Shown: positions 74-35,421 of the stretch, in pieces
Numbering within the stretch: position 1 is the first letter of the stretch
Layout: the number at the start of each line of letters is the position of its first letter
DNA from: Micromussa lordhowensis
Lineage: Eukaryota > Cnidaria > Anthozoa > Scleractinia > Lobophylliidae
Direction of reading: 5' to 3'
Assembly: GCA_964020085.1 (NCBI GenBank)
Contig: OZ026601.1
Location: 18,934,430-18,998,429 of the forward strand
Length of the DNA stretch: 64,000 nucleotides
Made by a program: the position numbers and the translations under genes
Notes under the pieces: model-generated
Seen by the model: only the letters and a program-made list of their open reading frames with translations
Database searches by the model: none
What the model was told of the DNA's origin: nothing

Positions 74-425
74 GTGAAAGAAAAAATCATTATATTTAGA
101 TGAAATTCAAACTAAAACAACGTTGGTATCTTTTATCTACTCAGACTTTGTTCTAGACCGATGTTATTTCACCCCCGAAAACAGCATTTAAGAATTAGTC
201 AAAAATAGCCAAATCTAACAAAAGAAGACACACTGAACGTCTAATAATGTCTAGTCGATTGCTAACTATTTTACGACTTAGGTAAAATCACTCTTTATAT
301 TATTCCTAATCTATTTTATAATGATTTGATGCGTAATGTGTGAGTGAGAATGGAGTAAACTAGAAGATGATCATGGTACGGCCGAAGCTGAACAAAGTCA
401 GTACCTTTGTAGATATTTTACTTAC

Positions 426-449
426 CTGCGGTTGATACCTGATCAGGAA
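426..449 (-). CDS. 24-nt micro-exon, peptide VPDQVSTA
   Basis: Acceptor ATTTCCAG and donor GCAG|GTAAGTAA flank the exon on the minus strand. Phase 1 at both ends. Identical to the exon of the 343-bp array at 20.1-23.5 kb. Confidence 0.6.
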
Positions 450-1153
450 CTGGAAATAATCATAACGTTTTGATTAAAATTCAAACTAAAACAAGCTTGG
501 TAACAAATCTTGGTATTATCTACTTAGATACTGTTCCATGTATGATGCCTAACCTTATTTATTATAAATTAATGGGTAATTTGTGAGAAAGGAAGGGAAA
601 AGTTTGAAGATGACCATGGTTTTAATGTTGACAAGCTTAATCTGTTATCGGTTATCAGAGTTTTGTCCGTGTGACTGTACCCTATGGTCAATTAAAGATC
701 TACACCCAACAGTGACTGTAATGTTCGATGCTTGAGGGTAGTGGTGACGGCTTTTTTTTCCTTGGAAGAGTTTCTGAGAGAATCTATTAAGCTTTCGCTG
801 GAAACAGTTAAAGATGATTTAAAAAGTGCAAAAAGTGGTTTTACATTAATTAACTAACTTGTATCTACTCAGACTTTGTTCTAGACCGATGTTATTTCAC
901 CCCCGAAAACAGCATTTAAGAATTAGTCAAAAATAGCCAAATCTAACAAAAGAAGACACACTGAACGTCTAATAATGTCTAGTCGATTGCTAACTATTTT
1001 ACGACTTAGGTAAAATCACTCTTTATATTATTCCTAATCTATTTTATAATGGTTTGATGCGTAATGTGTGAGTGAGAATGGAGTAAACTAGAAGATAATC
1101 ATGGTACGGCCGAAGCTGAACAAAGTCAGTACCTTTGTAGATATTTTACTTAC

Positions 1154-1177
1154 CTGCGGGTGATACCTGATCAGGAA
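1154..1177 (-). CDS. 24-nt micro-exon, peptide VPDQVSPA
   Basis: Same splice signals as the exon at 426. One base change turns Thr into Pro (ACC to CCC) and keeps the frame open. Confidence 0.6.
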
Positions 1178-1373
1178 CTGGAAATAATCATAATGTTTTG
1201 GATTAAAATTCAAACTAAAACTACTTAGATACTGTCCTATATATCAAGCCTAACCTGATTTATTATAAGTTAATGGGTAATTTGTGAATAAGGAAGGGAA
1301 AGGTTAAAGATGACCAGATCATGGTACGGCCGAAGCTGAACAAAGTCAGTACCTTTGTAGATATTTTACTTAC

Positions 1374-1397
1374 CTGCGGTTGATACCTGATCAGGAA
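1374..1397 (-). CDS. 24-nt micro-exon, peptide VPDQVSTA
   Basis: Acceptor and donor intact. The copy lies only 220 bp from the previous exon because the intervening intron unit is shortened. Confidence 0.6.
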
Positions 1398-4600: not shown

Positions 4601-4739
4601 GTTCGGTTCCATAAACTTCCACTCTAAGACAGTTCCAACCATGTCGCTTAGTTGGATTAAAACGGAGGTATCTTGCAGCCACTGTCACTGGTAACTTGTG
4701 TTGGTCAACAGTGTTGCCGTCGCCTTGCCTGTGAAATTC
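4601..4739 (-). CDS. F5/8 type C (discoidin) domain, second exon, copy A
   Basis: This 139-nt exon lies between acceptor TGACAG and donor GAAC|GTGAGT on the minus strand, entering in phase 0 and leaving in phase 1. It encodes the C-terminal third of a discoidin domain: EFHRQGDGNTV, then VAARYLRFNP, then GWNCLRVEVYG, matching the family pattern aRyiRi.P..w.....lRvEl.G. It follows the first-half exon at 5428-5759, whose phase-0 end fits exactly. Identical in sequence to copy B at 11881-12019. Confidence 0.85.
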
Positions 4740-5427: not shown

Positions 5428-5759
5428 CAGTTCTGCGCCATTTGCATCTTTATAAGGTGTCCAGTTGTTTCCATCATTTGAGTAAGAAAGCTTGAAGGCC
5501 GTTACCCAGTCACTACCAATAGTATCTCCCTGAGTAGCAATAGCACACACGTCGACCATTTTTCCAAGATCAACCTGCAGCCAATCGTCATTTCTGGCGC
5601 CTTCATTGGCACACCAGCCAAAGCCCCTGTTACCATTGAGTCGACCATAAGCAGCCTGCCAATTAGTCCAAAACTGAGAAGACGCTGTCATCTGATTGTC
5701 GGGAATTTTTCCTTGGTCGGAAATTCCTACAGGCTTGACATAGCAATCATCTGCTACTC
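5428..5759 (-). CDS. F5/8 type C (discoidin) domain, first exon, copy A
   Basis: The 332-nt exon starts after TTGCAG in phase 1 and ends at CTG|GTAAGA in phase 0. It encodes about 110 residues: a Cys near the start (VADDCYVKPVGI), IPDNQMTASS, the aromatic loop QFWTNW, GRLNGN, the core NDDWLQVDLG, TQGD and WVTAFKLSYSNDGNNW. These are the landmarks of F5/8C lectin-like domains, which bind carbohydrates, phospholipids or collagen-type ligands outside the cell. Domain completion is provided by the exon at 4601-4739. Compared with copy B, nearly all differences fall in the loops after TASS and after QGD. An upstream signal peptide was not found. Confidence 0.88.
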
Positions 5760-7953: not shown

Positions 7954-7974
7954 CTGCGATTGATGTGGTGGGCG
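7954..7974 (-). CDS. 21-nt micro-exon, peptide APTTSIA
   Basis: Acceptor ATTTTCAG and donor GCAG|GTGAGTAA. It is three nucleotides shorter than the type at 426, so the phase is kept. The 3-nt length difference between copies is evidence for selection on reading frame. Confidence 0.6.
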
Positions 7975-8609: not shown

Positions 8610-8633
8610 CCGCGGGTGATACCTGATCAGGCA
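8610..8633 (-). CDS. 24-nt micro-exon, peptide VPDQVSPA
   Basis: Acceptor TTTCCAG, donor GCGG|GTAAGT. The last exon base pair context differs (GCGG for GCAG) but remains a usable donor. Confidence 0.6.
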
Positions 8634-11880: not shown

Positions 11881-12019
11881 GTTCGGTTCCATAAACTTCC
11901 ACTCTAAGACAGTTCCAACCATGTCGCTTAGTTGGATTAAAACGGAGGTATCTTGCAGCCACTGTCACTGGTAACTTGTGTTGGTCAACAGTGTTGCCGT
12001 CGCCTTGCCTGTGAAATTC
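11881..12019 (-). CDS. F5/8 type C domain, second exon, copy B
   Basis: Base-for-base identical to 4601-4739, including acceptor and donor. It completes the domain begun by the exon at 12707-13038. The identity here contrasts with the divergent loops in its first exon. Confidence 0.85.
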
Positions 12020-12706: not shown

Positions 12707-13038
12707 CAGTTCTGCGCCATTTGCATCTTTATAAGGTGTCCAGTTGTTTCCATCATTTGAGTAAGAAAGCTTGAAGGCCGTTACCCATGTACTAGTAAAA
12801 GGATCTCCCTGAGAAGCAATAGCACACACGTCGACCATTTTTCCAAGATCAACCTGCAGCCAATCGTCATTTCTGGCGCCTTCATTGGCACACCAGCCAA
12901 AGCCCCTGTTACCATTGAGTCGACCATAAGCAGCCTGCCAATTAGTGCCAAACCAAGAAGACGCTGTCATCTGATTGTCGGGAATTTTTCCTTGGTCGGA
13001 AATTCCTACAGGCTTGGCATAGCAATCATCTGCTACTC
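12707..13038 (-). CDS. F5/8 type C domain, first exon, copy B
   Basis: The 332-nt exon has the same splice phases as copy A. The framework (IPDNQMTASS, GRLNGN, NDDWLQVDLG, WVTAFKLSYSNDGNNW) is unchanged. The first loop reads WFGTNW instead of QFWTNW, and the second reads ASQGDPFTST instead of ATQGDTIGSD. One further change (Val to Ala after DDCY) lies near the N-terminus. In solved F5/8C structures such loops form the ligand-contacting rim, so altered specificity is a reasonable inference. Confidence 0.88.
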
Positions 13039-13117: not shown

Positions 13118-14287
13118 GAGTGTATCTAATTGCCCAGGGTCAAGAGTCGAGGGTACAAAGTCGAGAGTCGAGGGTAACATGTCGATAGTCGAGGGTAACA
13201 TGTCGAGAGTCGAGGGTAACATGTCGAGAGTCGAAAAAAAGATATAAAATAAAAAAAATTAATAAAATATATATATAAAAATTAAGTGAAAAATTCAAAA
13301 AATATAAATAAATAATATTTAAAGTATAGTATATTTGAAATAAATGGAATGAAGTTAAAAAATAAATGAAATACATGAAATATTTTACTGAAAAAAAAAA
13401 TCAAGACAAAATTTTCTTTTGCCAGCTTTGCTTTTTCTTCATTAAAACGTGACACGGCCAAATGACTTTCCGCTTCTTACATTCTTGGGATTTTAGGGGG
13501 TGTCTCTTCTGTCAGCGCTGTCTTTACTGTCACGCAAACGTTAAGTCTTATCAGAGGAAACATGCACGCTATTTTTCAGTTCTCGATATTATCAATTTAG
13601 AACTGTACAACATTAAATAGCAAATAAACTAGAGAGAACTGTTTGAATGTATCCAATGTTATCTTGGTCAGTCAATGAACAAACAGAAAGGCATTGAAGG
13701 CTAAGATAAGATCCGCTATTCCTTAGTACGTTACATAAACCCCATTTCAATCCACTGCGTTAAGGTTAATTTTGTTTACTTGGCGAGTATTAGAACAAGG
13801 CATAAAAACAAAAAAAAAGACAGTTAATAGTTTATAATAATGTTGTACAGTTCTAAATTGATAATATCGAGAAATGAAAGTTAGGGTGCATGTTTCCTCT
13901 GATAAGACTTAACGTTTGCGTGACAGTAAAGACAGCGCTGACAGAAGAGACACCCCCTAAAATCCCAAGAATGTAAGAAGCGGAAAGTCATTTGGCCGTG
14001 TCACGTTTTAATGAAGAAAAAGCAAAGCTGGCAAAAGAAAATTTTGTCTTGATTTTTTTTTTCAGTAAAATATTTCATGTATTTCATTTATTTCATAACT
14101 TCATTCCATTTATTTCAAATATACTATACTTTAAATATTATTTATTTATATTTTTTGAATTTTTCACTTAATTTTTATATATATATTTTATTAATTTTTT
14201 TTATTTTATATCTTTTTTTCGACTCTCGACATGTTACCCTCGACCCTCGACATGTTACCCTCGACTCTCGACATGTTACCCTCGACT
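13118..14287. mobile_element. Foldback-like element 2, copy B
   Basis: Starts with GAGTGTATCTAATTG directly after CCTTCAATT; in copy A about 34 extra bases separate these two points. It carries only about four 21-bp units in the left arm. The right end is truncated at the same point as in copy A. Confidence 0.7.
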
Positions 14288-14338
14288 GCGAGCTCCGAAA
14301 TTGAACAAAGTCAATAGCTTTCTGGATATTTTACTCAC

Positions 14339-14359
14339 CTGCGATTGATGTGGTGGGCG
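14339..14359 (-). CDS. 21-nt micro-exon, peptide APTTSIA
   Basis: Duplicate of the exon at 7954 with identical splice sites. Confidence 0.6.
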
Positions 14360-14608
14360 CTGAAAATAATCATAAAGTTTGGATTAAACTCAAACTAAAA
14401 CAAACTTTATCGTTACTGAGAAAATTAACAAAAACCTTCAGATCTTGCTATTATCTACTAGATATACTTTCCTATGTACTATGCCTGATCTATTTTGTAG
14501 TGATTTGATGGGTAATTTTTATATGACAAAACTGGAAGATGATTGTGGTACAGCCGAAAAGCCGCCTACATTTAAAAAAGTCAGTACCTTTTGAGGTATT
14601 TTACTAAC

Positions 14609-14628
14609 GTCGTTTTGATACGGTAGAA
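14609..14628 (-). pseudogene. Splice-defective micro-exon (type B)
   Basis: Both sites are damaged: CAC acceptor, and the base before the GTTAGT donor is changed relative to the 8231 copy. Confidence 0.4.
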
Positions 14629-14983
14629 GTGAAAAAACAAAAAATCATTATATTTGGATGAAATTCAAACTAAAACAACGTTGGTAACTTTTATCTACTC
14701 AGACTTTGTTCTAGACCGATGTTATTTCACCCCAAAAAACAGCATTTAAGAATTAGTCAAAAATAGCCAAATCTAGCAAAAGAAAACATAATGAACGTCT
14801 AATAATGTCTAGTCGATTGCTAACTATTTTACGAGTTAGGTAAAATCACTCTTTATATTAGGCCTAATCTATTTTGTAATGATTTGATGCGTAATGTGTG
14901 AGTGAGAATGGACTAAACTAGAAGATGATCATGGTACGGCCGAAGCTGAACAAAGTCAGTACCTTTGTAGATATTTTACTTAC

Positions 14984-15007
14984 CTGCGGTTGATACCTGA
15001 TCAGGAA
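14984..15007 (-). CDS. 24-nt micro-exon, peptide VPDQVSTA
   Basis: In the extra unit present only in copy B; it ends in the same ACTGTGGAATAATTG junction as the units of the 343-bp array. Confidence 0.6.
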
Positions 15008-15330
15008 CTGGAAATAATCATAACGTTTTGATTAAAATTCAAACTAAAACAAGCTTGGTAACAAATCTTGGTATTATCTACTTAGATACTGTTCCATGTA
15101 TGATGCCTAACCTTACTGTGGAATAATTGTTATTCATGGAATAATTGTTATTTAGTCGATTGCTAACTATTTTACGAGTTAGGTAAAATCACTCTTTATA
15201 TTAGGCCTAATCTATTTTGTAATGATTTGATGGGTAATGTGTGAGTGAGAATGGACTAAACTAGAAGATGATCATGGTACGGCCGAAGCTGAACACACAA
15301 AGTCAGTACCTTTGTAGATATTTCACTTAC

Positions 15331-15354
15331 CCGCGGGTGATACCTGATCAGGCA
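15331..15354 (-). CDS. 24-nt micro-exon, peptide VPDQVSPA
   Basis: Partner of the exon at 8610; donor GCGG|GTAAGT. Acceptor intact. Confidence 0.6.
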
Positions 15355-16039
15355 CTGGAAATAATCATAACGTTCTGGATTAAAATTCAAACTAAAACAA
15401 GCTTGGTAACAAATCTTGGTATTATCTACTTAGATACTGTTCCATATATGATGCCTAACCTTATTTACTAAAAGATAATGGGTAATTTGTTAGTTAGTAA
15501 GGAAGGGCAAAGTTTGAAGATGACCATGGTATGAATGTTGACAAGCTTAAATCTGTTATCCGTTATCAGCGTTTTGTCTATGTGACTGTACCCTTTGCTC
15601 AGTTAATGATCGTCAACCAACAGTGATGGTAATCTTCGATGCTTGAGGGTATTGGTGACGGCCGCTTTTCCTCAACATCCTTTCTGAGACTCTATTCGCT
15701 ACTTGCACATACCCATAATCCTTTGCGTTGTTGGGGGGTAACCATTTAATAGCATAAATGGATGGTATCATGACAAAAATTAGTTCGGGGAACTCGCAAA
15801 ACCAGCTACTAATGCTTAAAAATGCACCAGAATTTACCAAAATCATGATAGGAGAAATTTGTACTAGTTTATAACTAAATGTAGAGAATTTTTTTTTGTC
15901 CATACATCGTCTTGTAATTTTACGGACGATGATGGGTAATTTTTAAATGAGAATAGACAAAACTAGAAGATGATTGTTGTGCAGCCGAATAGCTGCCTAA
16001 ATTGGAAAAAGTCAGTACCTTTTGAGGTATTTTACTAAC

Positions 16040-16060
16040 CTGGTTTTGATACGGTAGGCG
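16040..16060 (-). pseudogene. Splice-defective micro-exon (type B), peptide would be PTVSKP
   Basis: GTTAGT donor present; the acceptor position reads TTTTAT, without AG. Confidence 0.4.
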
Positions 16061-16179
16061 ATAAAAGAAAAAAAATCATCATATCTGGATGAAATTCAAA
16101 CTAAAACAACCTTGGTTAACTTTTATCTACTCCGGACCTTGGTCTAGATTGATGTTATTTCAACCCCGAAAAAGAGCAT

Positions 16180-16499
16180 TAGTAACTTCTCAGCTCCGAC
16201 TATTGCATTTCTAGCTTTTGGATTGGCTAAAAAACTCCGACTATGAGCCAATAGTCGGAGGTTTACGTCATATTGAAAATAGTGCGCCAAGTTTAAAAAT
16301 TTTCCGCACGAAGTTTTCAACTTCAGACCTCTATAATGGTCGAAATAAAAATCGGCGGCAAAACCCGGTTTGATAATTTACTAAAACAATTATTCCATTC
16401 GCCCTTGTTGGATATGAAGTGATTAAAACCAACTCGCGCTACGCGCTCGTTGGTTATGTTATCACTTCATATCCAACTAAGGCTCATGGAATAATTGTT
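16180..16499. mobile_element. Hairpin MITE(s) inserted in an intron unit
   Basis: Two palindromic parts are visible. One has CTCCGACTATTG and its inverse CAATAGTCGGAG. The other is a longer hairpin from about 16384 to 16498 with ends CAATTATTCCAT and ATGGAATAATTG and a GGATATGAAGTGAT stem. The same terminal sequence survives as a short scar in every 343-bp array unit. Confidence 0.65.
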
Positions 16500-16676
16500 A
16501 TTTAGTCGATTGCTAACTATTTTACGAGTTAGGTAAAATCACTCTTTATATTAGGCCTAATCTATTTTGTAATGATTTGATGCGTAATGTGTGAGTGAGA
16601 ATGGAGTAAACTAGAAGATGATCATGGTACGGCGGAAGCTGAACAAAGTCAGTACCTTTGTAGATATTTTACTTAC

Positions 16677-16700
16677 CTGCGTGAGGTACCCAATCAGGAA
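16677..16700 (-). CDS. 24-nt micro-exon, peptide VPDWVPHA
   Basis: The most diverged 24-nt copy in the peptide (four amino-acid changes), yet acceptor TTTCCAG, donor GCAG|GTAAGT and frame are intact. Confidence 0.55.
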
Positions 16701-17192
16701 CTGGAAATAATCATAATGTTTTGGATTAAAATTCAAACTAAAACAAGCTTGGTAACAAATCTTGGTATTATCTACTTAGATATTGTTCTATACATCATGC
16801 CTAACCTTATTTATTATAAGTTAATTGGTAATTTGTGAGTAAGGAAGGGCAAAGTTTGAAGATGACCATGGTTTGAATGTTGACAAGCTTAAATCTGTTA
16901 TACGTTATCAGAGTTTTGTCCGTGTGACTCTACCCTATGGTCAATTAAAGATCTACACCCAACAGTGATTGTAATCTTCGATGCTTGAGGGTAGTGGTGA
17001 CGGCTTTTTTTTTCCTTGGCATAGTTTCTGAGAGAATCTATTAAGCTTTCGCTGGAAACAGTTGTTAATGATGACTTAAAAAGTCGAAAAAGTGGTTTTA
17101 CGTTAATTAACTATAAGTATTTAATGACTCAACTCTGCAAGGTCAGCTGGTATTTTTTGTGTTAAGCAGGCGTTCTCATTTGTCATGCGTCT

Positions 17193-17293
17193 TCAATTTG
17201 TTAGGCAGTGGCCAGCAAGTTTGCTGCGTTTAACTATCTTTGGACAATTGACACCAGCACGGCCACAAAGAGAAGGGCAGACTTTTTTGAATT
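17193..17293 (-). CDS. Possible Cys-containing terminal exon
   Basis: After a TTCAG acceptor, a phase-1 frame reads EFKKVCPSLCGRAGVNCPKI and continues about 13 residues to LTN and a TGA. It contains four Cys and follows the WAP exon at 17492-17650 by about 200 bp in transcription order. It could be the 3' end of one gene copy. No AATAAA was seen close by and I recognise no domain, so this is a weak call. Confidence 0.3.
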
Positions 17294-17491
17294 CTGAACT
17301 CGTGTCCACCACAATCACTTAATACTTATTACAATTTTCTCTCCCTTTAATTATTCAGTTTAGAACTTTTTCTTGTTTTTTTTTGGAAGTAATTAACGTT
17401 TAAGTAAACAAAAATTCATATCTTAATATGCCTCTAGCACCGTTTTGACCAAAAACGCAACATTATGTTCATAGTGCTACTCTCAACTTAC

Positions 17492-17650
17492 CAACACAAT
17501 CATTTTCACAGCCAATGTCGCAACATATTAATCCTTCTATGCAGTCACTATCGTCAGTACAAAAGTTCTTTTTGTACCATGGACATTCAGCCGGTTTTTC
17601 AAAAACTGGACATACGCCTCGTCCTGGAGACAGATCACATTTAACTCAAA
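17492..17650 (-). pseudogene. WAP (four-disulfide-core) exon with an early stop
   Basis: The 159-nt exon (acceptor CACCAG, donor GTTG|GTAAGT) is symmetrical phase 1-1. It encodes CDLSPGRGVCP, EKPAECP, FCTDDSDC, GLICCDIGC and ENDC: eight cysteines with the WAP spacing C-x5-C-x5-CC-x3-C-x3-C. WAP domains are secreted protease inhibitors or antimicrobial and matrix modules. The first in-frame codon of the exon is TGA where the copy at 24.7 kb has TGT, so the exon as spliced here would terminate the protein. An alternative acceptor further in would avoid the stop. Called a pseudo-exon with that caveat. Confidence 0.7.
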
Positions 17651-18091
17651 CTGGTGATTATTAAGCAAAATCAAGTTTGTTTTAGTAGCTAGTGAAGAAA
17701 AGCATGGTGGAACCATATTGGAAATAATCTAGACAAGCTTTCCAAGAGTTTATTATTTCTTCAAAAGCTGAATAATACTCTTTCTAGACGTCCACGGCAG
17801 CTTTTCAAGTGTGCAATGTTTGGCAGTTGTCCTTTTTTTGTAAGATTTGCAATTTCAGATCTGCTGCTTCGTTGTCTGTTTTAGAGATGGAATCCATGTA
17901 AAAAAGCGAAAACTACTTATATATAAGTGACTGGAAAATAAGCATTCTTCCATTCCTTGGATAATGATGCATTTGAAATCACTGCCGTTAACACTTGCCT
18001 TGTTTGAATCTCCTACGACCAGGAGGTGGGGAAGCGGATTGCGAGCTCCAAAATTGAACAAAGTGAATAGCTTTCTAGGTATTTTACTCAC

Positions 18092-18112
18092 CTGTCATTG
18101 ATATGGTGGGCG
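18092..18112 (-). CDS. 21-nt micro-exon, peptide APTISMT
   Basis: Acceptor ATTTTTAG and donor ACAG|GTGAGTAA. Variant of the 7954 type with two amino-acid changes. Confidence 0.55.
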
Positions 18113-18367
18113 CTAAAAATAATCACAAAGTTTGGATTAAACTCAAACTAAAACAAACTTTATCGTTACTGAGAAAATTAACAAAAACCTTCAGATTTGC
18201 TATTATCTACTAGATATACTGTCCTATGTACTATGCCTAATCTATTTTGTAGTGATTTGATGGGTAATTTTTATATGAAAACAGACAAAGCTGGAAGATG
18301 ATTGTGGTACAGCCGAATAGCCACCTAAATTGAAAAAAGTCAGTACCTTTTGAGGTATTTTACTAAC

Positions 18368-18388
18368 CTGGTTTTGATACGGTAGGCG
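18368..18388 (-). pseudogene. Splice-defective micro-exon (type B)
   Basis: CAC acceptor with an otherwise open 21-nt exon (PTVSKP). Confidence 0.4.
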
Positions 18389-18745
18389 GTGAAAGAAAAA
18401 ATCATTATATTTGGATGAAATTCAAACAAAAACAACCTTGGTAGCTTTTATCTACTCAGACTTTGTTCTAGACCGATGTTATTTCACCCCCGAAAACAGC
18501 ATTTAAGAATTAGTCAAAAATAGCCAAATCTAACAAAAGGAGACACAATGAACGTCTAATAATGTCTGGTGGATTGCTAACTACTTTACAACTTAGGTAA
18601 AATCACCCTATATATTATTCCTAATCTATTTTATAATGATTTGATGCCTAATGTGTGAGTGAGAATGGAGTAAACTAGATCAGAAGATGATCATGGTACG
18701 GCCGAAGCTGAACAAAGTCAGTACCTTTGTAGATATTTTACTTAC

Positions 18746-18769
18746 CTGCCTGTGATACCTGATCAGGAA
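18746..18769 (-). CDS. 24-nt micro-exon, peptide VPDQVSQA
   Basis: Splice sites intact; Thr replaced by Gln relative to the array exon. Confidence 0.6.
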
Positions 18770-19310
18770 CTGGAAATAATCATAATGTTTTGGATTAAAA
18801 TTCAAACTAAAACAAGCTTGGTAACAAATCTTGGTATTATCTACTTAGATACTGTTCTATATATCAAGCCTAACCTTATTTATTATAAGTTAATGGGTAA
18901 TTTGTGAATAAGGAAGGGAAAAGTTTAAAGTTGACCATGGTAAGAATGTTGACAAGCTTAAATGCGGTGTAACTTAATTCTCTATTTTATATTTAACGGA
19001 CGCCATTATCCGTTGTTTAAAACAAAGAGGCGAAGTCCAAAGTATAAACTAATCTCGGATCAGCAAACATATTGAGTTAGTAAGCGAGTCTTGTAGGTAG
19101 AGAGCGAAAACTCCCTTTAAAAGGATAAGTAACTGGACAATGGACACTCTTTAGTTAATTGGATGATGATGCATTATAGAGTAGTGTTAACACTAGCTTA
19201 ACACTGTTCACACCAGACATGTTTGAATCTCCTACGACCAGGAGGTGGGGAAGCGGATTCCGAGCTCCGAAATTGAACAAAGTCAATAGCTTTCTGGATA
19301 TTTTACTCAC

Positions 19311-19331
19311 CTGCGATTGATGTGGTGGGCG
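19311..19331 (-). CDS. 21-nt micro-exon, peptide APTTSIA
   Basis: Third copy of the 7954-type exon. Its 3' context (CCGAGCTCCGAAATTG) is the unbroken version of the junction found at the right end of the foldback element 2 copies. Confidence 0.6.
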
Positions 19332-19590
19332 CTGAAAATAATCATAAAGTTTGGATTAAACTCAAACTAAAACAAACTTTATCGTTACTGAGAAAATTAA
19401 CAAAAACCTTCAGATTTGCTATTATCTACTAGATATACGTACTGTCCTATGTACTATGCCTGATCTATTTTGTAGTGATTTGATGGCTAATTTTTATATG
19501 AGAACAGACAAAGCTGGAAGATGATTGTGGTACAGCCGAATAGCCGCCTAAATTGAAAAAAGTCAGTACCTTTTGAGATATTTTACTAAC

Positions 19591-19611
19591 TTGGTTTTGA
19601 TACGGTAGGCG
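19591..19611 (-). pseudogene. Splice-defective micro-exon (type B)
   Basis: CAC acceptor; the exon's last base is also changed (AAG... to donor CCAA|GTTAGT). Confidence 0.4.
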
Positions 19612-19734
19612 GTGAAAGAAAAAATCATTATATTTGGATGAAATTCAAACTAAAACAACGTTGGTATCTTTTATCTACTCAGACTTTGTTCTAGACCGAT
19701 GTTATTTCACCCCCGAAAACAGCATTTAAGAATT

Positions 19735-20030
19735 ATTCTCAAACTCATTAATAATTCATCAAGTTACAACAAAGGAAATCATGACCGTGACGGTGGTTTG
19801 GATATCCGGTCTTAATTAGCATAGATTTTGACGATTTCACTTCTCCGTTTACTCCTTAGTTTTTGTTTCGATTGAGAAGATATATCAAATACTCGAGACA
19901 GTGTTTCATCAGCTATCCAAACACCTCGAATTTCGTCAAAAATACTCCGCTGCGCGTCGTATTTTCAACTCTCTTCTCGGTGTTTGGATATCCCGATGAA
20001 ACACTGTCACTCGTGTTTGATATATTACGT
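19735..20030. repeat. Dispersed ~300-bp MITE-like repeat inserted into an intron unit
   Basis: The flanks AAGAATTA and GTCAAAAATAGCC are contiguous in other units (for example at 190-210), so about 296 bp was inserted here. Confidence 0.65.
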
Positions 20031-20256
20031 CAAAAATAGCCAAATCTAACAAAAGAAGACACACTGAACGTCTAATAATGTCTAGTCGATTGCTAACTAT
20101 TTTACGACTTAGGTAAAATCACTCTTTATATTATTCCTAATCTATTTTATAATGATTTGATGCGTAATGTGTGAGTGAGAATGGACTAAACTAGAAGATA
20201 GTCATGGTACGGCCGAAGCTGAACAAAGTCAGTACCTTTGTAGATATTTTACTTAC

Positions 20257-20280
20257 CTGCGGTTGATACCTGATCAGGAA
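20257..20280 (-). CDS. Array micro-exon 1 (VPDQVSTA)
   Basis: First of ten identical exons; acceptor ATTTCCAG, donor GCAG|GTAAGTAA. Confidence 0.6.
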
Positions 20281-20599
20281 CTGGAAATAATCATAACGTT
20301 TTGATTAAAATTCAAACTAAAACAAGCTTGGTAACAAATCTTGGTATTATCTACTTAGATACTGTTCCATGTATGATGCCTAACCTTACTGTGGAATAAT
20401 TGTTATTCATGGAATAATTGTTATTTAGTCGATTGCTAACTATTTTACGAGTTAGGTAAGATCACTCTTTATATTAGGCCTAATCTATTTTGTAATGATT
20501 CGATTGGTAATGTGTGAGTAAGAATGGACTAAACTAGAAGATGGTTATGGTACGGCCGAAGCTGAACAAAGTCAGTACCTTTGTAGATATTTTACTTAC

Positions 20600-20623
20600 C
20601 TGCGGTTGATACCTGATCAGGAA
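20600..20623 (-). CDS. Array micro-exon 2
   Basis: Identical exon and splice sites; upstream intron carries GGTAAC. Confidence 0.6.
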
Positions 20624-20942
20624 CTGGAAATAATCATAACGTTTTGATTAAAATTCAAACTAAAACAAGCTTGGTAACAAATCTTGGTATTATCTACTTA
20701 GATACTGTTCCATGTATGATGCCTAACCTTACTGTGGAATAATTGTTATTCATGGAATAATTGTTATTTAGTCGATTGCTAACTATTTTATGAATTAGGT
20801 AAAATCACTCTTTATATTAGGCCTAATCTATTTTGTAATGATTTGATTGGTAATGTGTGAGTGAGAATGGACTAAACTAGAAGATGATCATGGTACGGCC
20901 GAAGCTGAACAAAGTCAGTACCTTTGTAGATATTTTACTTAC

Positions 20943-20966
20943 CTGCGGTTGATACCTGATCAGGAA
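20943..20966 (-). CDS. Array micro-exon 3
   Basis: Identical exon; neighbouring SNP GGCAAC with CATGTATG. Confidence 0.6.
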
Positions 20967-21285
20967 CTGGAAATAATCATAACGTTTTGATTAAAATTCA
21001 AACTAAAACAAGCTTGGCAACAAATCTTGGTATTATCTACTTAGATACTGTTCCATGTATGATGCCTAACCTTACTGTGGAATAATTGTTATTCATGGAA
21101 TAATTGTTATTTAGTCGATTGCTAACTATTTTACGAGTTAGGTAAAATCACTCTTTATATTAGGCCTAATCTATTTTGTAATGATTTGATTGGTAATGTG
21201 TGAGTGAGAATGGACTAAACTAGAAGATGATTATGGTACGGCCGAAGCTGAACAAAGTCAGTACCTTTGTAGATATTTTACTTAC

Positions 21286-21309
21286 CTGCGGTTGATACCT
21301 GATCAGGAA
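21286..21309 (-). CDS. Array micro-exon 4
   Basis: Identical exon; SNP pair GGCAAC with CATGCATG, shared with exon 6. Confidence 0.6.
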
Positions 21310-21628
21310 CTGGAAATAATCATAACGTTTTGATTAAAATTCAAACTAAAACAAGCTTGGCAACAAATCTTGGTATTATCTACTTAGATACTGTTCCATG
21401 CATGATGCCTAACCTTACTGTGGAATAATTGTTATTCATGGAATAATTGTTATTTAGTCGATTGCTAACTATTTTACGAGTTAGGTAAAATCACTCTTTA
21501 TATTAGGCCTAATCTATTTTGTAATGATTTGATTGGTAATGTGTGAGTGAGAATGGACTAAACTAGAAGATGATTATGGTACGGCCGAAGCTGAACAAAG
21601 TCAGTACCTTTGTAGATATTTTACTTAC

Positions 21629-21652
21629 CTGCGGTTGATACCTGATCAGGAA
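21629..21652 (-). CDS. Array micro-exon 5
   Basis: Identical exon; SNP pair GGTAAC with CATGTATG, as exon 7. Confidence 0.6.
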
Positions 21653-21971
21653 CTGGAAATAATCATAACGTTTTGATTAAAATTCAAACTAAAACAAGCT
21701 TGGTAACAAATCTTGGTATTATCTACTTAGATACTGTTCCATGTATGATGCCTAACCTTACTGTGGAATAATTGTTATTCATGGAATAATTGTTATTTAG
21801 TCGATTGCTAACTATTTTACGAGTTAGGTAAAATCACTCTTTATATTAGGCCTAATCTATTTTGTAATGATTTGATTGGTAATGTGTGAGTGAGAATGGA
21901 CTAAACTAGAAGATGATTATGGTACGGCCGAAGCTGAACAAAGTCGGTACCTTTGTAGATATTTTACTTAC

Positions 21972-21995
21972 CTGCGGTTGATACCTGATCAGGAA
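21972..21995 (-). CDS. Array micro-exon 6
   Basis: Identical exon; shares both intron SNPs with exon 4. Confidence 0.6.
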
Positions 21996-22314
21996 CTGGA
22001 AATAATCATAACGTTTTGATTAAAATTCAAACTAAAACAAGCTTGGCAACAAATCTTGGTATTATCTACTTAGATACTGTTCCATGCATGATGCCTAACC
22101 TTACTGTGGAATAATTGTTATTCATGGAATAATTGTTATTTAGTCGATTGCTAACTATTTTACGAGTTAGGTAAAATCACTCTTTATATTAGGCCTAATC
22201 TATTTTGTAATGATTTGATTGGTAATGTGTGAGTGAGAATGGACTAAACTAGAAGATGATTATGGTACGGCCGAAGCTGAACAAAGTCAGTACCTTTGTA
22301 GATATTTTACTTAC

Positions 22315-22338
22315 CTGCGGTTGATACCTGATCAGGAA
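22315..22338 (-). CDS. Array micro-exon 7
   Basis: Identical exon; intron as exon 5. Confidence 0.6.
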
Positions 22339-22657
22339 CTGGAAATAATCATAACGTTTTGATTAAAATTCAAACTAAAACAAGCTTGGTAACAAATCTT
22401 GGTATTATCTACTTAGATACTGTTCCATGTATGATGCCTAACCTTACTGTGGAATAATTGTTATTCATGGAATAATTGTTATTTAGTCGATTGCTAACTA
22501 TTTTACGAGTTAGGTAAAATCACTCTTTATATTAGGCCTAATCTATTTTGTAATGATTTGATTGGTAATGTGTGAGTGAGAATATACTAAACTAGAAGAT
22601 GATTATGGTACGGCCGAAGCTGAACAAAGTCAGTACCTTTGTAGATAATTTACTTAC

Positions 22658-22681
22658 CTGCGGTTGATACCTGATCAGGAA
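22658..22681 (-). CDS. Array micro-exon 8
   Basis: Identical exon; intron downstream has a private change (GATAATTTACTT for GATATTTTACTT). Confidence 0.6.
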
Positions 22682-23000
22682 CTGGAAATAATCATAACGT
22701 TTTGATTAAAATTCAAACTAAAACAAGCTTGGCAACAAATCTTGGTATTATCTACTTAGATACTGTTCCATGTATGATGCCTAACCTTACTGTGGAATAA
22801 TTGTTATTCATGGAATAATTGTTATTTAGTCGATTGCTAACTATTTTACGAGTTAGGTAAAATCACTCTTTATATTAGGCCTAATCTATTTTGTAATGAT
22901 TTGATTGGTAATGTGTGAGTGAGAATGGACTAAACTAGAAGATGATCATGGTACGGCCGAAGCTGAACAAAGTCAGTACCTTTGTAGATATTTTACTTAC

Positions 23001-23024
23001 CTGCGGTTGATACCTGATCAGGAA
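23001..23024 (-). CDS. Array micro-exon 9
   Basis: Identical exon and splice sites. Confidence 0.6.
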
Positions 23025-23343
23025 CTGGAAATAATCATAACGTTTTGATTAAAATTCAAACTAAAACAAGCTTGGTAACAAATCTTGGTATTATCTACTT
23101 AGATACTGTTCCATGTATGATGCCTAACCTTACTGTGGAATAATTGTTATTTATGGAATAATTATTATTTAGTCGATTGCTAACTATTTTACGAGTTAGG
23201 TAAAATCACTCTTTGTATTAGGCCTAATCTATTTTGTAATGATTTGATTGGTAATGTGTGAGTGAGAATGGACTAAACTAGAAGATGATCATGGTACGGC
23301 CGAAGCTGAACAAAGTCAGTACCTTTGTAGATATTTTACTTAC

Positions 23344-23367
23344 CTGCGGTTGATACCTGATCAGGAA
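23344..23367 (-). CDS. Array micro-exon 10
   Basis: Last array copy; right of it the unit changes to a longer non-array intron type. Confidence 0.6.
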
Positions 23368-24071
23368 CTGGAAATAATCATAACGTTTTGATTAAAATTC
23401 AAACTAAAACAAGCTTGGTAACAAATCTTGGTATTATCTACTTAGATACTGTTCCATGTATGATGCCTAACGTTATTTATTATAAATTAATGGGTAATTT
23501 GTGAGAAAGGAAGGGAAAAGTTTGAAGATGACCATGGTTTTAATGCTGACAAGCGTAATCTGTTATCGGTTATCAGAGTTTTGTCCGTGTGACTGTACCC
23601 TATGGTCAATTAAAGATCTACACCCAACAGTGACTGTAATGTTCGGTGCTTGAGGGTAGTGGTGACGGCTTTTTTTTCCTTGGCATAGTTTCTGAGAGAA
23701 TCTATTAAGCTTTCGCTGGAAACAGTTAAAGATGATTTAAAAAGTGGAAAAAGTGGTTTTACATTAATTAACTAACTTTTATCTACTCAGACTTTGTTCT
23801 ACACCGATGTTATTTCACCCCCGAAAACAGCATTTAAGAATTAGTCAAAAATAGCCAAATCTAACAAAAGAAGACACACTGAACGTCTAATAATGTCTAG
23901 TCGATTGCTAACTATTTTACGACTTAGGTAAAATCACTCTTTATATTATTCCTAATCTATTTTATAATGATTTGATGCGTAATGTGTGAGTGAGAATGGA
24001 GTAAACTAGAAGATGATCATGGTACGGCCGAAGCTGAACAAAGTCAGTACCTTTGTAGATATTTTACTTAC

Positions 24072-24095
24072 CTGCGGGTGATACCTGATCAGGAA
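24072..24095 (-). CDS. 24-nt micro-exon, peptide VPDQVSPA
   Basis: Splice sites intact; same protein variant as the exon at 1154. Confidence 0.6.
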
Positions 24096-24556
24096 CTGGA
24101 AATAATCATAACGTTTTGGATTAAAATTCAAACTAAAACAAGCTTGGTAACAAATCTTGGTATTATCTACTTAGATACTGTTCTACATATCAAGCCTAAC
24201 CTTATTTATTATAAATTTATGGGTAATTTGTGAGTAAGAAGGGAAAAGTTTGAAGATGACCATGGTATGAATGTTGACAAGCTTAAATGTGGTGTAACTT
24301 AATTCTCTATTTCATATTTAACGGACGCCATTGTCCGTTATTTAAAACAAAGAGGCGAGGTCCAAAGTATAAACTAATCTCGGATCAGCAAACATATTGA
24401 GTTAGTAAGCGAGTCTTGTAGGTAGAGAGCGAAAACTCCCTTTAAAAGGATAAGTAAATAGACAATGGACACTCTTTAGTTAATTGGATGATGATGCATT
24501 ATAGAGTAGTGTTAACACTAGCTTAACACTGTTCACACCAGGCATGTTTGAATCAA

Positions 24557-24704
24557 CCATTTGCATAGCCAGTGTCACAACACTTCAGTCCCGCTGGGCA
24601 GCTATTGCCATCACAACAGTTCTCTATGGCCTCTGGACATTCAGCCGGTGGTTCAAAAGTTGGACATATGCCTGGTTCTGGAGACAGATCACATTTATCA
24701 CAAA
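24557..24704 (-). pseudogene. WAP exon truncated at its 3' end
   Basis: Acceptor CACCAG is followed in phase 1 by CDKCDLSPEPGICP, EPPAECP, NCCDGNSC, GLKCCDTGY. This is a WAP domain in which cysteine 7 is replaced by Tyr. The last cysteine, the donor and the following intron are missing because the sequence joins unrelated repeat DNA at about 24556. The N-terminal end is better preserved than in the copy at 17492-17650. Confidence 0.7.
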
Positions 24705-25299
24705 CTGGTGATTACTAAGCAAAATTTAGTGTTGATGAGTAGCTAGTGAAGAAAAGCACGGTGGAACCATTCTGGTAATTATCTGGTGATTAGTAAGTAA
24801 AATTTGCTTTTTGTGAGTGACTTCAGCGGAAGCACAAGGTGGAACTACATAAGCTGCGGGAGCGAGTGGCGCTGCAGGCCCCCTCCCCACCCCCCAGCTA
24901 CGGAGATTATGTAATTTTTCGGGCAAAACGTTCATAATTCGGGAAACTACACTTGAGAGAAAAAGCTGTTGGCGGGATTTCCAAATCTTGTAAATAGAGT
25001 TTCTAGTTAGTGCTTGTTTTGTAAATCTCTGTGTAATTAGACGTCCGACTGGGAGTCTGTAGGCTGTCAAGTGTTTCTTCAGAAAAAATAAAATATCCCT
25101 TTGTTAAGGCATTTCCAAACGGCACTTCTTAGAGCCACCATAAAAACAAAAGTAGTGGTCTTTGTTCGGTTTGATTGGTGTTCTTGTTGATGGAAAAATT
25201 TGGAAAGGAAATAACATCCTCATTGTGGGTTTCTACGATACACATTTCACCCGAGATCACTCATATCATTTCAGTCAAAGTCCTTTTCGGGGTCCACCA

Positions 25300-26974
25300 A
25301 ATAACGTGGCGTCTTCGGTGCGCCAACGATACTTGAGATCAGCAGCAGATACAAATGATACACTTTACACTACATTACTTAATTTGCTAAATACACTGTA
25401 CCTTGCCAACATCTTGTCACCACTTCAGAACAATAAATACAAAGTAAAGAACAGTGCATCTTTCGTTGAAAAGATCCACTCCATGTCAGTGAATTCGGAC
25501 GAAATCTTAGGCCTAGGGCAAACGTCGAATCTAAGTCGCGTCGAATACATTTAAAATAAGTGCGACAAAGAGTCGACTTCATTCCAGCGTGGTAGCAAAC
25601 GTCGATCCTATTTCACTAGTTGCACTTCATTAAAACACAGGAATAAGCACGTGCCCCGTGCTGTTCACCTGATGCGCTGCTAATTACAGCTAGGACTTGC
25701 TAGCAAAATGCAGAAACACAGTGTTCGTATAATTCATTGCGAAAACTAGCACGAGACTAGAAAACTAGAAAGACTTTTATTTCATAGAGCTCTGAAAACA
25801 GTTTATTAGAAACGACAGCTTTTGGTCTAATTGGCATGCTTGACCGTGCTTTAATTTTGTTAGCGAATAACAATGGAGAAGCAGTCTTGAGCAGCGGTCT
25901 TCATGTCAGCAATGACTTTCTATAGTTCGCCATTCCCGGTTGCGAAATTATCGTTGTACAGCGCATGCTCGTCAGGGGGGGAAATAGCGTTTGACAGATG
26001 GGGGAGTATGTATTTTTATGACATTTGACCCGTCCATCACATTTAAATAAATCATTTTGTAATTTGCATGATTTATGAATTGAGTTCGGCGCGTGTTTGG
26101 AGCGACGTTTGCCGGCACGCCGAGCCGCTGTCGCATTATCCGAGTTGGCAACTCGAACCTATGCTAGAGTCGAATCGATTAATTTGAGTCGAATTTAATT
26201 GCAGCAAACGTCGCATCATTCATGCCCCTATTTCAAAATAAATAGGTTCGATGAATTATATTCGAGTTAGATTCGACGTTTGCCCTAGGCCTTAGTGTCC
26301 TTTGACGTCGTGTCACTGTTTACTTGCATTCATACCCATCTAGCCATAGAAGTTGTTAAAGAGAGACTGGGCTTTGATCAATCAATACCGGAGAGAACAA
26401 ACTTATCCCTCCAAAATGTTATCGCTCTTCTACAGTTTGTCCTTGACAACAACTTCTTCGAGTTCCAAGGTGACCATTTCAAACAAATTTTCGGTTGCCC
26501 GATGGGATCTCCAGTCAGCGCCATCTTAGCCAATCTCGTCATGGAATATGTCGAAGAAAAGGCCTTCTTATCGGCCCCAAACCCTTCCAAATGGTGGTTC
26601 AGATACGTAGATGACAGCCATGTGTGCGTAAAAAGGGAACGCGTGGATGAATTCCATTCACATCTCAATTCTATCAACACCAACATCAAATGTACCATCG
26701 AGAATCAGAAGGTTCCATTGCCTTTCTTGACACAAAAACAACCAGACAAGACGATGACTCGATCACCGTGTCTGTTTACAGGAAAGCTACACACACCGAC
26801 CGCTACCTTGATTTCAAATCACACCACCATCCCCAGCATAAACACTCGGTCGTACGCACCCTCATGGATCGCGCAAAGAATATTCCATCCACCGAGGAGG
26901 AAGCATTACGAGAAACTAAGCGAGTAGCGGAAGCCCTCGCCGCTAATAACTACCCTGCCAATTTCATTTACTAA
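25300..26974 (+). pseudogene. Penelope-like reverse transcriptase, split and frameshifted
   Basis: The RT ORF is interrupted between residues DEIL and VSFD by the 782-bp TIR element. 782 plus the 3-bp duplicated target is 785, which matches the change of frame, so excision would restore frame. The fingers/palm motifs SFDVVSLFT (containing the first catalytic Asp), GCPMGSPVSA and the RYVDD box (near 26605) are readable. The frame changes near 26700; beyond it GSIAFLDTK and the thumb region run to a stop at 26974. PLEs copy their RNA at exposed DNA ends. Confidence 0.85.
25510..26291. mobile_element. 782-bp non-autonomous TIR transposon in the PLE, TSD TTA
   Basis: The termini are GGCCTAGGGCAAACGTCGAA at 25510 and its inverse ending at 26291. 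They are flanked by TTA at 25507-25509 and 26292-26294. No transposase ORF. A 3-bp TTA/TWA target with such TIRs fits PIF/Harbinger-type MITEs, though other superfamilies with 3-bp targets are possible. Confidence 0.85.
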
Positions 26975-27038
26975 ATAGACAACTAAATAGACAACAAGAA
27001 GCGAATGGTACCGACCAGCACGGCATGGTTACAAAGTT

Positions 27039-27488
27039 TTGCCCTTCGCCAAAGGATTCTCTGAGAGAATCGCCAAAGTTAATCGAAGCTTCTACATCAA
27101 GTTTGCCCATAAGCCTTTTCGGACAATCTCAAACATACTTAAAAAACCAAAAGACAAGATCGAGAAAGGGGCTTCCAGAGGAATCGTGTACAAAATCAAA
27201 TTTAAAGATTATGATTGTGTCTACATTGGTCAGACATCGCGCGCGCTAAAAACACACGTCAAAGAGCACGCAAAGGCCATAGCAACATTAGATGAAAACT
27301 CTTTGTTGGCCAAACACCACATGCGCCACCGTCACCAAATAGATGTGGCGAGCGTCGAAATTGTTGACAGGTCATCAGCATGGCGACAAAGACTTATTCT
27401 TGAGGCTTGGCATTCCGTGCGAGGCACGAACGCTATAAACGAACACATAGCGCTTCCAAACGTCTACAATAGCATAACGAATTTGTAG
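27039..27488 (+). CDS. GIY-YIG endonuclease domain of PLE 1
   Basis: The 149-codon ORF has GIVYKIKF and VYIGQTSRALKTHVKEH (residues ~49-76), the GIY-YIG pair with its following Arg and the later His, then a conserved tail. In PLEs this C-terminal endonuclease nicks the target DNA. It is in the same frame as the RT core but separated from it by stops, so it is a domain remnant rather than a free gene. Confidence 0.8.
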   Translation: MPFAKGFSERIAKVNRSFYIKFAHKPFRTISNILKKPKDKIEKGASRGIVYKIKFKDYDCVYIGQTSRALKTHVKEHAKAIATLDENSLLAKHHMRHRHQIDVASVEIVDRSSAWRQRLILEAWHSVRGTNAINEHIALPNVYNSITNL

Positions 27489-27582
27489 AAGTAATTAAGA
27501 ATGGTCTTGTTCTTTCGAGTTGCGACTTAATATTAACATACATCATATACCATCAGGACGCCGTTAAACATTTGCATTTTAT

Positions 27583-27625
27583 CTTTTGCTGAAGAAGGCA
27601 ACAGCAGTTGCCGAAACGTCCAACA
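27583..27625 (+). ncRNA. Hammerhead-ribozyme-like motif in PLE 1 tail
   Basis: CTGAAGA at 27589-27595 (CUGANGA core), a perfect stem II GGCAAC/GTTGCC with loop AGCA (27597-27612), then GAAAC. Hammerhead motifs are known in Penelope-like elements. Stem III is extremely short (ACGT), so activity as a monomer is doubtful. Confidence 0.5.
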
Positions 27626-27687
27626 CAATATTTTAGCCAGTGTCAACCTTTTTAAATATCTTTTTATCTAGTTTTTAACAGAATAAA

Positions 27688-28739
27688 TTAGCTGAATGAA
27701 AAGCGTTCGTTGATACCGTGAGGATTAAGATTGCCGATTTGAAAAATAAATTTTTGTTCTAGAGTTTTACGGCTTTCCGTGCCTCCTTGATGAAGGGAAA
27801 GGGCGCAGACTGCCATATGTTGCATCGAATGATTGGGGAGATTAAAGTGTGTCGCGACCGGTTTAGATGCGTTTTTGTCCTCTTTCTCCACGTCACGAAC
27901 GTGTTCTCGAAATCGGTCGCCTAGTCGTCTCCCTATTTCGCCGATGTATAACTTTTTGCAAAAAGTGCAAGTTATGCAGTAGATGACATTGGCTGAGGTA
28001 CAGGTGAAATGATCAGTGATCTTGATGGATCGCTTGGAGCCCGATATCAACGTTACGAATGAAAGGACATGTTTTGCATCGTGCGCGGGCGCATTTAAAA
28101 GTTCCGGGTTGATCACTTGTTTGGAATACACTTCTGACTAAAAAGTTATCTATATTTTTGTCGCGTTTGAATGAAATTAATGGAGGTTGCGAAAAGATTC
28201 TACCAGTGTCGGGATTATTTTGAAGTAGGTTAAAGTATTTTAGGACGATATATTTTACTGCGTGGTTATGAGGGCGAATGGAATTCTCAAGTGTTGTTGA
28301 TCAATTTGATGGGCGCGATGATTGCCCGCTTGAACAACAGAAGCAGGATAGCCACGTTTGTCGAAGAAATTGCACATTTCCTCTGATTTTAAGGAAAAAT
28401 CAGAGTCGTCACTACAAAGACGGCGAAGTCTGAGAAACTGAGAATAAGGAATGGAATTCTTGACATGTGATGGATGTGAAGATGAATACAACCAATATCT
28501 GTGAGAATCTCTGGGTTTGTAGTGCACACTGGTGCATAAACCATTGCCTTCGATAGAAACTTTGATATCCAGAAATGCTAAAGAAGTATCGGAAATTTCC
28601 CAGGTATATTTAAGAGCAGGATGAAACGAATTGACAGCGGCTATAAATTGATTGAGATCCTCTCTGGTAGATGAGGTTTGGAAGGACGTCTTGCAATTTC
28701 CGTTCCCATGGCAACCCACTCCTTTCCAGTCCCCTCTAG
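27688..28739 (-). mobile_element. Penelope-like retroelement 2, 5'-truncated, tail to tail with PLE 1
   Basis: Minus-strand pieces: 28719-28255 holds the end of the RT (SLAFLDIKVSI, YKPRDSHRYWLYSSSHPSH, a typical PLE thumb). A short frameshifted bridge with NNPDTGRIFSQPPLISFKR follows, then 28131-27688 with GIY-YIG (VIYCITCTFCKKLYIGEIGR, then EHVRDV). The YWLYSSSHP and RIFSQPPLISFKR motifs differ from PLE 1, so the two belong to different families. Confidence 0.8.
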
Positions 28740-31523: not shown

Positions 31524-31547
31524 CTGCTGTCATTGATACGGTAGGCG
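31524..31547 (-). CDS. 24-nt micro-exon, peptide APTVSMTA
   Basis: Acceptor CATTTTCAG, donor GCAG|GTAAGTAA. It combines the PTVS core of type B with functional splice sites and so looks like an older state of that type. Confidence 0.6.
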
Positions 31548-32594: not shown

Positions 32595-32618
32595 CTGCGA
32601 TTGATACATGATCAGGCG
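32595..32618 (-). CDS. 24-nt micro-exon, peptide APDHVSIA
   Basis: The most 5' exon found for the locus. Acceptor TGTTTTCAG, donor GCAG|GTAAGTAA, frame open. Diverged from the array exon at five positions or so while keeping all signals. Confidence 0.6.
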
Positions 32619-32619: not shown

Positions 32620-34145
32620 TGAAAACAATCATAAAGTTTGGATTAAATTCAAACTAAGACAACTGTGGTAACAAATTTTGGTATTATCTTCTCAAATATT
32701 GTTCTTTATATTATGCGAAATCTGTTTTTTAATAACTTGATGAGCAACAAAATTTGTCTTGCGCCTTGAGTTGGTTACAATGGCCGGCAGCGATTCCCGT
32801 CCTTAGATGCCGCACTCCTTCAGCGGCGCGACGAGAATGGCTATCATACCTAACTGGACATGACGGCACGGTCACAGGACACACGAGGTAACCACACAGT
32901 TATAAAAAGATTAATTGAGCCAATGGCTTACTTATCTGTGTTGCGCCAAAAAGAACAAGGGCTTGCAGGATTCTCAAGGACATCATCTTTTATGCCTGTT
33001 ACAGAAAAAAAAGAAACATTCTTAACAATACGTTTTCAAGTTGGAGAAAACCAGTTACCAGTTTTTTTAATTTTACAACGAATAAGTGGTTTGAGGTTAT
33101 AAATGCTACCTCAAGATGAAATTCCAGTTCACTGAGGTCAAACCTTGTTGACTTTGACTTTAATTATTATATAATTTTATTAGAATTTATTATTATAAAA
33201 TAGTAATAAAGTTAGCTGAAAGGTCTCTAAGGAGTCCCTTGGCAGGGACGAAACATACACATGTAAGGCTAGCCATTGTAAAATTCTCACACTTAATTAT
33301 TATTAAAATATTATTAACAGCAATGTAACAGCAAGTTTGATTACTTAGTCTACGAGATGTTGTACATAAAGGACATCAAGCCTTCTCTTAACACGCAAGC
33401 CGACTCCATTCGCGCCAAACTGGTTACGTGACACTTTCGTACGATTTGTTTTCTTTTTTATTGTACTTATACTTTTTCACTTTTCAGCTTGATAACGGCG
33501 TAACGTAGCGCCGAAACGTCGTTCACTTTTTTAAATGTATTTTAAAATCTTTTAGCGTTTAACTTTGTGATCAATTTATATTTTTATTTTAAAAGGTCAC
33601 ACAATCAGCTAAAGGCTAAAACTAAGTAATCCATAGAAACAAATCATGGGGCAAACATGCTTGAAAAGTGAAGCAAAAGAAAAGTTCTAATCCAAAAAAA
33701 GGAAGCAAACTAATCTGGAACAATAATAACAAGACAATTATTTTGCCAAATAGTAGAAAACTAGCTTAAACGGAATGCTATTTAATAATTGCAGACTGCT
33801 AAGTGGGCTCTTTAACCCTGCAATATGATGAAAGCTAAGAAGCTGACAAGAGAAACAGGAAAAGTATCTGAAGTCCAGTTTGTCAAAGAAGGAAGGCGAA
33901 CGCCATAAAACTAGACCTGTTTACAGGTGTGAAGAAAATTACCCCCACAAAGGATGATCTTGTCCAGCTCTGAATAAGAATGGCCACTGCCACCTGAAAG
34001 GCCATTAAACAAAGTATGTAGAAGTAGATTGACTTCCAAGAAAGCAAATATAGTGGAGGAAAAAGATGGCAACGAGTCTTCCGATGAAGAATGCACTTAC
34101 TGTATCCCACTCTATTCCATGCGTGACAGGGTACAGCCATAAAAG
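32620..34145. other. Non-coding, with a PLE-tail-like remnant
   Basis: Around 33487-33521 CTTGATAA is followed by a CGGCG/CGCCG hairpin and GAAACGTC, a decayed version of the hammerhead-like motif at 27.6 kb. No coding region recognised. Confidence 0.45.
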
Positions 34146-35382: not shown

Positions 35383-35421
35383 ATTCCTTCACGTTCTTTT
35401 CTCCAAACTCTTTCGTTCCTA

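Follow-up and report, generated by a model that had tools for sequence, protein, structure and literature searches.

Does a tandem array in which every unit carries what looks like a complete 24-nt exon belong to a coral gene, with the number of units setting the length of the protein, or has a former exon simply been amplified? The question is raised by a window from Micromussa lordhowensis, by which we mean the whole stretch of 64,000 nucleotides that was analysed. Judged from its letters, the array is on balance probably a run of ten 343-bp intron/micro-exon/intron modules in a predicted gene for a likely secreted protein with WAP and F5/8C domains, each exon adding the octapeptide VPDQVSTA to a linker.

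Tandem Repeats Finder (TRF) returned a repeat of period 343 at 20083-23475, with 9.9 copies, 98% matches and 0% indels, and the start-to-start distance between units is 343 without deviation over nine steps. On the minus strand, each unit presents the acceptor end ttccag, the exon TTCCTGATCAGGTATCAACCGCAG and the donor gtaagt, and the exon, the ccag before it and the gtaagt after it are the same in 10/10 units (micro-exon starts, minus strand: 20257, 20600, 20943, 21286, 21629, 21972, 22315, 22658, 23001 and 23344). The exon is 24 nt long, has phase 1-1 and translates as VPDQVSTA. An earlier note on this DNA had described ten identical micro-exons of 24 nt with these splice sites, this phase and this octapeptide, and the sequence agrees with it on all of these points; the phase, moreover, suits the domain exons nearby. 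The note had also called the 343-bp array exact, which is true of the period and of the exon, but not of the whole unit, where 23/343 columns vary and pairs of units show 0-13 differences over their first 300 positions. Its suggestion of ongoing homogenisation is not borne out, the unit at 20083 being the most divergent of the array. The array thus has two attributes of an exon-containing VNTR of the LPA KIV-2 kind: near-identical tandem units, each with a complete exon and its splice sites, and a symmetrical exon (24 nt, phase 1-1) that leaves the frame unaffected by unit number. Other identities for the unit were considered and rejected: a tRNA scan found no tRNA, and Rfam over 14000-25500 gave no match in the array. 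A sigma-70 promoter scan is uninformative for animal DNA. Rfam did give a sub-threshold histone 3' stem-loop at 25116-25161 on the plus strand (25.6 bits vs a cut-off of 34).

No variable column falls at unit offsets 165-248, the exon occupying offsets 174-197. However, chance would place only about 1.6 variable sites in the exon (23 x 24/343), so that exon invariance within a young array is weak evidence alone. Such near-chance invariance would equally be seen if the array were a young satellite derived from a once-working micro-exon, the gene ending at a truncated WAP exon or being interrupted by retroelements, with ten non-coding passenger exons that are alike through recent amplification. 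We consider this possible but less likely, and the evidence on it is divided.

We turn to the gene to which the exons may belong. The domain exons (Table 1) share the minus strand with the micro-exons, and every border that faces micro-exons has phase 1. Membership of PF00754 is borne by the first F5/8C exons only (73.8 and 66.2 bits vs a cut-off of 28.2), and that of PF00095 by the WAP exon (29.6 bits vs 20.8). The F5/8C junction continues as in P0013, a lactadherin-like protein of Orbicella faveolata, and joining 30 chosen exons gives a single open frame of 554 codons, a model that leaves out the six C modules described below and the truncated WAP exon. That WAP and F5/8C exons downstream of the array are open and phase compatible argues against mere passengers.

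Table 1. Features of the locus, listed from high to low coordinates, which is transcript order for the minus strand.
Feature	Position	Strand	Basis
Candidate signal-peptide exon MMSLRILQALVLFGATQI, phase-1 donor gtaagc, tentative	32932..32986	-	loose scan
Older micro-exon X, 24 nt, APDHVSIA	32595..32618	-	micro-exon scan
B-like micro-exon, 24 nt, APTVSMTA	31524..31547	-	micro-exon scan
Truncated second WAP exon, in-frame TGA at end, no consensus donor	24553..24677	-	by eye; PF00095 E 1.6e-4
Micro-exon A upstream of array, VPDQVSPA	24072..24095	-	micro-exon scan
Array, ten head-to-tail units (intron-micro-exon-intron)	20083..23475	-	TRF; spacings; 23 variable columns
First array micro-exon in transcript order	23344..23367	-	ttccag/gtaagt, phase 1-1, VPDQVSTA
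Last of the ten array micro-exons	20257..20280	-	same exon as other nine
Micro-exon B, APTTSIA	19311..19331	-	micro-exon scan
Micro-exon A, VPDQVSQA	18746..18769	-	micro-exon scan
Micro-exon B, APTISMT	18092..18112	-	micro-exon scan
WAP four-disulfide-core exon, phase 1-1	17492..17623	-	Pfam PF00095 E 8.3e-7, above cut-off
Micro-exon A, VPDWVPHA	16677..16700	-	micro-exon scan
Micro-exon A, VPDQVSPA	15331..15354	-	micro-exon scan
Micro-exon A, VPDQVSTA, unit 99.1% identical to array unit	14984..15007	-	blastn + micro-exon scan
Micro-exon B, APTTSIA	14339..14359	-	micro-exon scan
F5/8C first exon, duplicate	12707..13038	-	Pfam PF00754 E 4.1e-18
F5/8C second exon, duplicate	11881..12019	-	exon model
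Micro-exon A, VPDQVSPA	8610..8633	-	micro-exon scan
Micro-exon B, 21 nt, APTTSIA	7954..7974	-	micro-exon scan
F5/8C first exon, phase 1-0	5428..5759	-	Pfam PF00754 E 1.8e-20
F5/8C second exon (EFHRQGDGN...VEVYGTE), phase 0-1	4601..4739	-	reads on across junction as P0013
Micro-exon A, VPDQVSTA	1374..1397	-	micro-exon scan
One-unit paralogue of ten-unit block 20024-24139; micro-exons 426-449 and 1154-1177	194..1221	-	alignment

With model residues 125-386 as query, 56 relatives were found among 5380 candidates; 32 are named from stony corals, 23 of these from Oculina patagonica, and on this ground a bacterial-type reading was rejected. A WAP domain (PF00095) is listed in 0/56 of them, so that its presence in one protein with F5/8C is without support from these relatives. 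By sequence, the solved relatives of the F5/8C domain include factors V and VIII, neuropilins and lactadherin. The O. patagonica protein P0122, one of 17 relatives that were read, has five F5/8C domains with four S/T/P-rich linkers of 16 residues between them, for example ESSISPTTTQPATTEP, and P0123 of Acropora millepora is an F5/8C protein with similar short linkers. These two resemble the coral model in their tandem related F5/8C domains and short S/T/P-rich linkers, but their linker sequence differs, and the likeness is one known from proteins, not from exon structure. A query with the linker itself, for which the 7996 candidates sharing most words were scored, gave a single match and no coral protein; the match is, by its accession, of the PT-repeat family. 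In viral contigs, the exact 20-base exon pattern had 0 matches and F5/8C relatives amounted to two weak short matches, while in genome contigs no F5/8C relatives were confirmed.

For the start of the protein there is one tentative candidate. A putative signal-peptide exon (32932-32986) precedes the first micro-exon by 313 bp, but was chosen post hoc as one of eight loose-scan matches (at seven places) and fails a stricter filter. A tblastn search with the signal peptides of two relatives (P0013 of Orbicella, and P0007) and one protein tail gave no convincing signal-peptide match. A 235-codon minus-strand frame at 46522-47226 matches no Pfam family, and close to its start has a stretch resembling a signal peptide. 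Two further kinds of repeat were noted: a 21-bp minisatellite at 5894-6850 (45.6 copies, 96% matches), which adjoins an F5/8C first exon and whose unit recurs in shorter arrays in both orientations, and a frame with 18-bp repeats encoding AHQQVP/AHQEVP at 2697-3377, without Pfam match, with a duplicate near 9913-10656.

The array is part of a larger family. Using blastn with one unit, related modules were found within 1-33 kb, all in a single orientation. A hand count from the blastn table gives 31, of which 21 are dispersed and the other ten make up the array. The AG, the GT and an in-frame exon are kept in 25 modules, which are splice-competent by this measure, with symmetrical exons of 21-24 nt on one strand. 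Type A accounts for 19 of the 25, the ten array copies included; type B has five members, four with an exon of 21 nt and one with an exon of 24 nt; and a single module is of an older type, X. The scan required a length in multiples of three and the absence of stops, and no AG-bearing related module was lost thereby. The remaining six, subtype C, keep the donor and lack the acceptor AG, and were taken as dead; the locus therefore tolerates dead modules, as would be expected of passengers. Against passengers stands the finding that no AG-keeping module has a stop or a frame shift in its exon. The earlier note had held that the same unit found elsewhere without splice-site conservation would speak against its proposal: the C modules are of this kind, but 15/21 dispersed modules keep their splice sites. 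A match at 16082 suggested that C modules might provide alternative starts for a signal peptide; we rejected this, as by eye the copies lack one common frame.

Candidate micro-exon structures exceed chance on the minus strand. The pattern YAG, 15-36 nt (a multiple of three, open in phase 1), GTRAGT has 30 occurrences on that strand and one on the plus strand; in 100 first-order Markov resamplings the count averaged 4.4 and never exceeded 10. When the length and stop filter is left out, the counts are 37 on the minus vs 19 on the plus strand.

Which part of the module has been kept? Ten A copies were aligned, nine dispersed and one from the array. Substitutions are seen in 0/21 splice-region columns, the one gap there lying in the tract, as against 45/240 intron columns (82 of which have gaps), giving a Fisher p of 0.03. 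In the exon, 9/24 columns vary, none by a gap, making it at least as variable as the intron as a whole (p 0.058) and more so than its 40-nt flanks, where 10/76 gap-free columns vary (p 0.015). All of these p values are rough, columns being treated as independent and the copies being related. Compared with the most frequent form, six of the ten A exons are changed, each of them at codon 7, where Thr has become Pro in four, His in one and Gln in one; the exon at 16677 has two further codons changed, those at 8610 and 15331 have two silent changes in common, and none of the changes introduces a frame shift or a stop. The pattern among A copies thus fits a history in which splicing would have been kept and the peptide left free to vary. 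With an exon no less variable than the intron, purifying selection on the octapeptide is without support. The two halves of this result pull in opposite directions, dispersed A exons that vary no less than introns being what passengers would show, and splice signals that stay without substitution while introns diverge being what they would not. In the four B copies, 1/3 acceptor columns, 1/12 tract columns, 3/21 exon columns and 40/205 intron columns vary. This variation in splice columns, together with the 56 relatives in which no WAP domain is listed, weakens the reading of the array as working exons and strengthens that of a satellite.

The region upstream of the array also favours a broken gene. 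The truncated WAP exon at 24553-24677, still WAP by profile (22.3 bits vs 20.8), lies downstream of the early micro-exons (31.5-32.6 kb) and upstream of the array; it ends in an in-frame TGA and is without a consensus donor, and if it is used, translation ends before the array, which would then be untranslated. About 7.4 kb separate the first micro-exons from the array, and contain a reverse-transcriptase frame (26289-26924, Pfam) and two weak GIY-YIG frames. Over 26289-28746 this reverse-transcriptase frame and the GIY-YIG-like frames, at 14.8 and 15.6 bits and below the cut-off, hint at Penelope-like elements. The plus strand has three frames in succession at 35377-39189, of which the second matches RVT_1 and RT_RNaseH; their layout is in our view reminiscent of a DIRS-type retroelement.

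Can the number of units change without disturbing what surrounds them? When nine units are left out of the block at 20024-24139, its alignment with the block at 194-1221 spans 1029 columns and contains 20 mismatches and a single gap. The two blocks lie about 20 kb apart, within 24 kb, and differ in length by 3088 bases, nine units being 3087. The strongest result of this study is that nine units appear to have been gained by one paralogue or lost by the other, at 2% substitution. The proposal in the earlier note, that copy number could tune the length of a linker, gains support from this one-unit paralogue of the ten-unit block within the same window, although the splicing on which it depends is predicted only. 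Regarding the origin of the array, the spacer that joins its units has its end in common with one arm of a palindromic element at 16385-16499 (39-nt arms, 90% complementary, around a 37-nt loop), and the element may therefore have seeded the first unit duplication. The window also contains a 4.7-kb duplication (1316-5968 and 8548-13234, 97.5% identity) that carries the F5/8C exon pair, and 6755-8742 and 13139-15115 match at 97.8%.

Two other accounts fare less well. The micro-exons could be real but regulatory, competing identical splice sites slowing splicing or yielding circular or skipped products, with peptide number incidental. The spliceosome presumably cannot distinguish identical sites, and the intronic flanks around the exon are conserved across the A, B and C consensus sequences, as such a role might predict; frame, however, is kept in every AG-keeping module, which a purely regulatory role would not need, and we regard this account as improbable. 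That the unit number is an assembly artefact, the repeat having collapsed or expanded, is more improbable still: the units are near-identical, the fifth and seventh without a difference over 300 bases, and their number of ten may be off, but they have distinguishing substitutions (the 23 variable columns) and exact spacing, and the flanks match the one-unit paralogue.

If the array is a series of working exons, each 24-nt exon spliced in would add one more VPDQVSTA octapeptide to the linker. Unequal crossing-over between identical units could then have raised the unit number from one to ten, or lowered it from ten to one, altering the linker by 72 residues with the frame intact. With identical splice sites side by side, the cell may also skip units and so produce linkers of graded length. 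Lipids or glycans are the ligands of F5/8C domains, and the linkers would set the distance between these domains and the WAP head. More speculatively, the linker might serve as a ruler, a coral secreted adhesion protein spacing its binding domains by its count of identical 24-nt micro-exons, with unequal crossing-over acting over generations and skipping within the cell, while exon codons diversify faster than introns.

Among the literature matches listed, no paper names this locus or a coral tandem micro-exon array. A close parallel in form is the kringle IV-2 repeat of human LPA, which, in the accessible text, has a 5.5 kb unit, present in 1 to >40 copies, whose exons (160 and 182 bp) code for a kringle domain; as there, a tandem unit contains whole exons and introns, copies vary little and their number sets protein length (PMC4378929). 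The coral unit, unlike that of LPA, is 343 bp with one 24-nt exon for a linker octapeptide, and the copy contrast is between paralogues within one window. Schistosoma MEGs, as far as the excerpts available describe them, have most of their coding region in very small symmetrical exons (PMC4350168), and share with the coral model tiny symmetrical skippable exons and a secreted product, predicted in our case (PMC4350168, PMC10526429). In contrast to them, the coral model has WAP and F5/8C domains and ten micro-exons that are identical copies, and it falls outside the MEG definition because its coding region is not mostly micro-exonic (588/1662 modelled coding bases). An N-terminal signal peptide is a further trait of MEGs, for which the coral model has the tentative exon at 32932-32986. 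Argiope MaSp2 spidroin genes likewise have exon-intron units homogenised within the gene, and their authors suggest, in the portion of the paper at hand, that repeated introns aid homogenisation of the coding units and that alternative splicing likely alters only length (PMC9779670). Silk repeats, however, make up the protein, whereas the coral exons are tiny linkers beside folded domains. In S. mansoni, Davis et al. reportedly described, in 1988, repeats of 81 bases encoded by exons arranged in tandem, which would likewise be tandem exons for peptide repeats; those of the coral are of 24 nt.

Annotation easily overlooks micro-exons of this size; PMC8831610, in its available part, treats those of 15 nt or less. 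If the exons are spliced, the array would be a VNTR acting on protein length, its exons far below the size of those of LPA (24 vs 160 and 182 bp), the nine-unit difference between the blocks would amount to 72 residues of linker, and the one-unit and ten-unit blocks would offer a built-in contrast for measuring the splicing of interchangeable micro-exons and the evolution of domain spacing.
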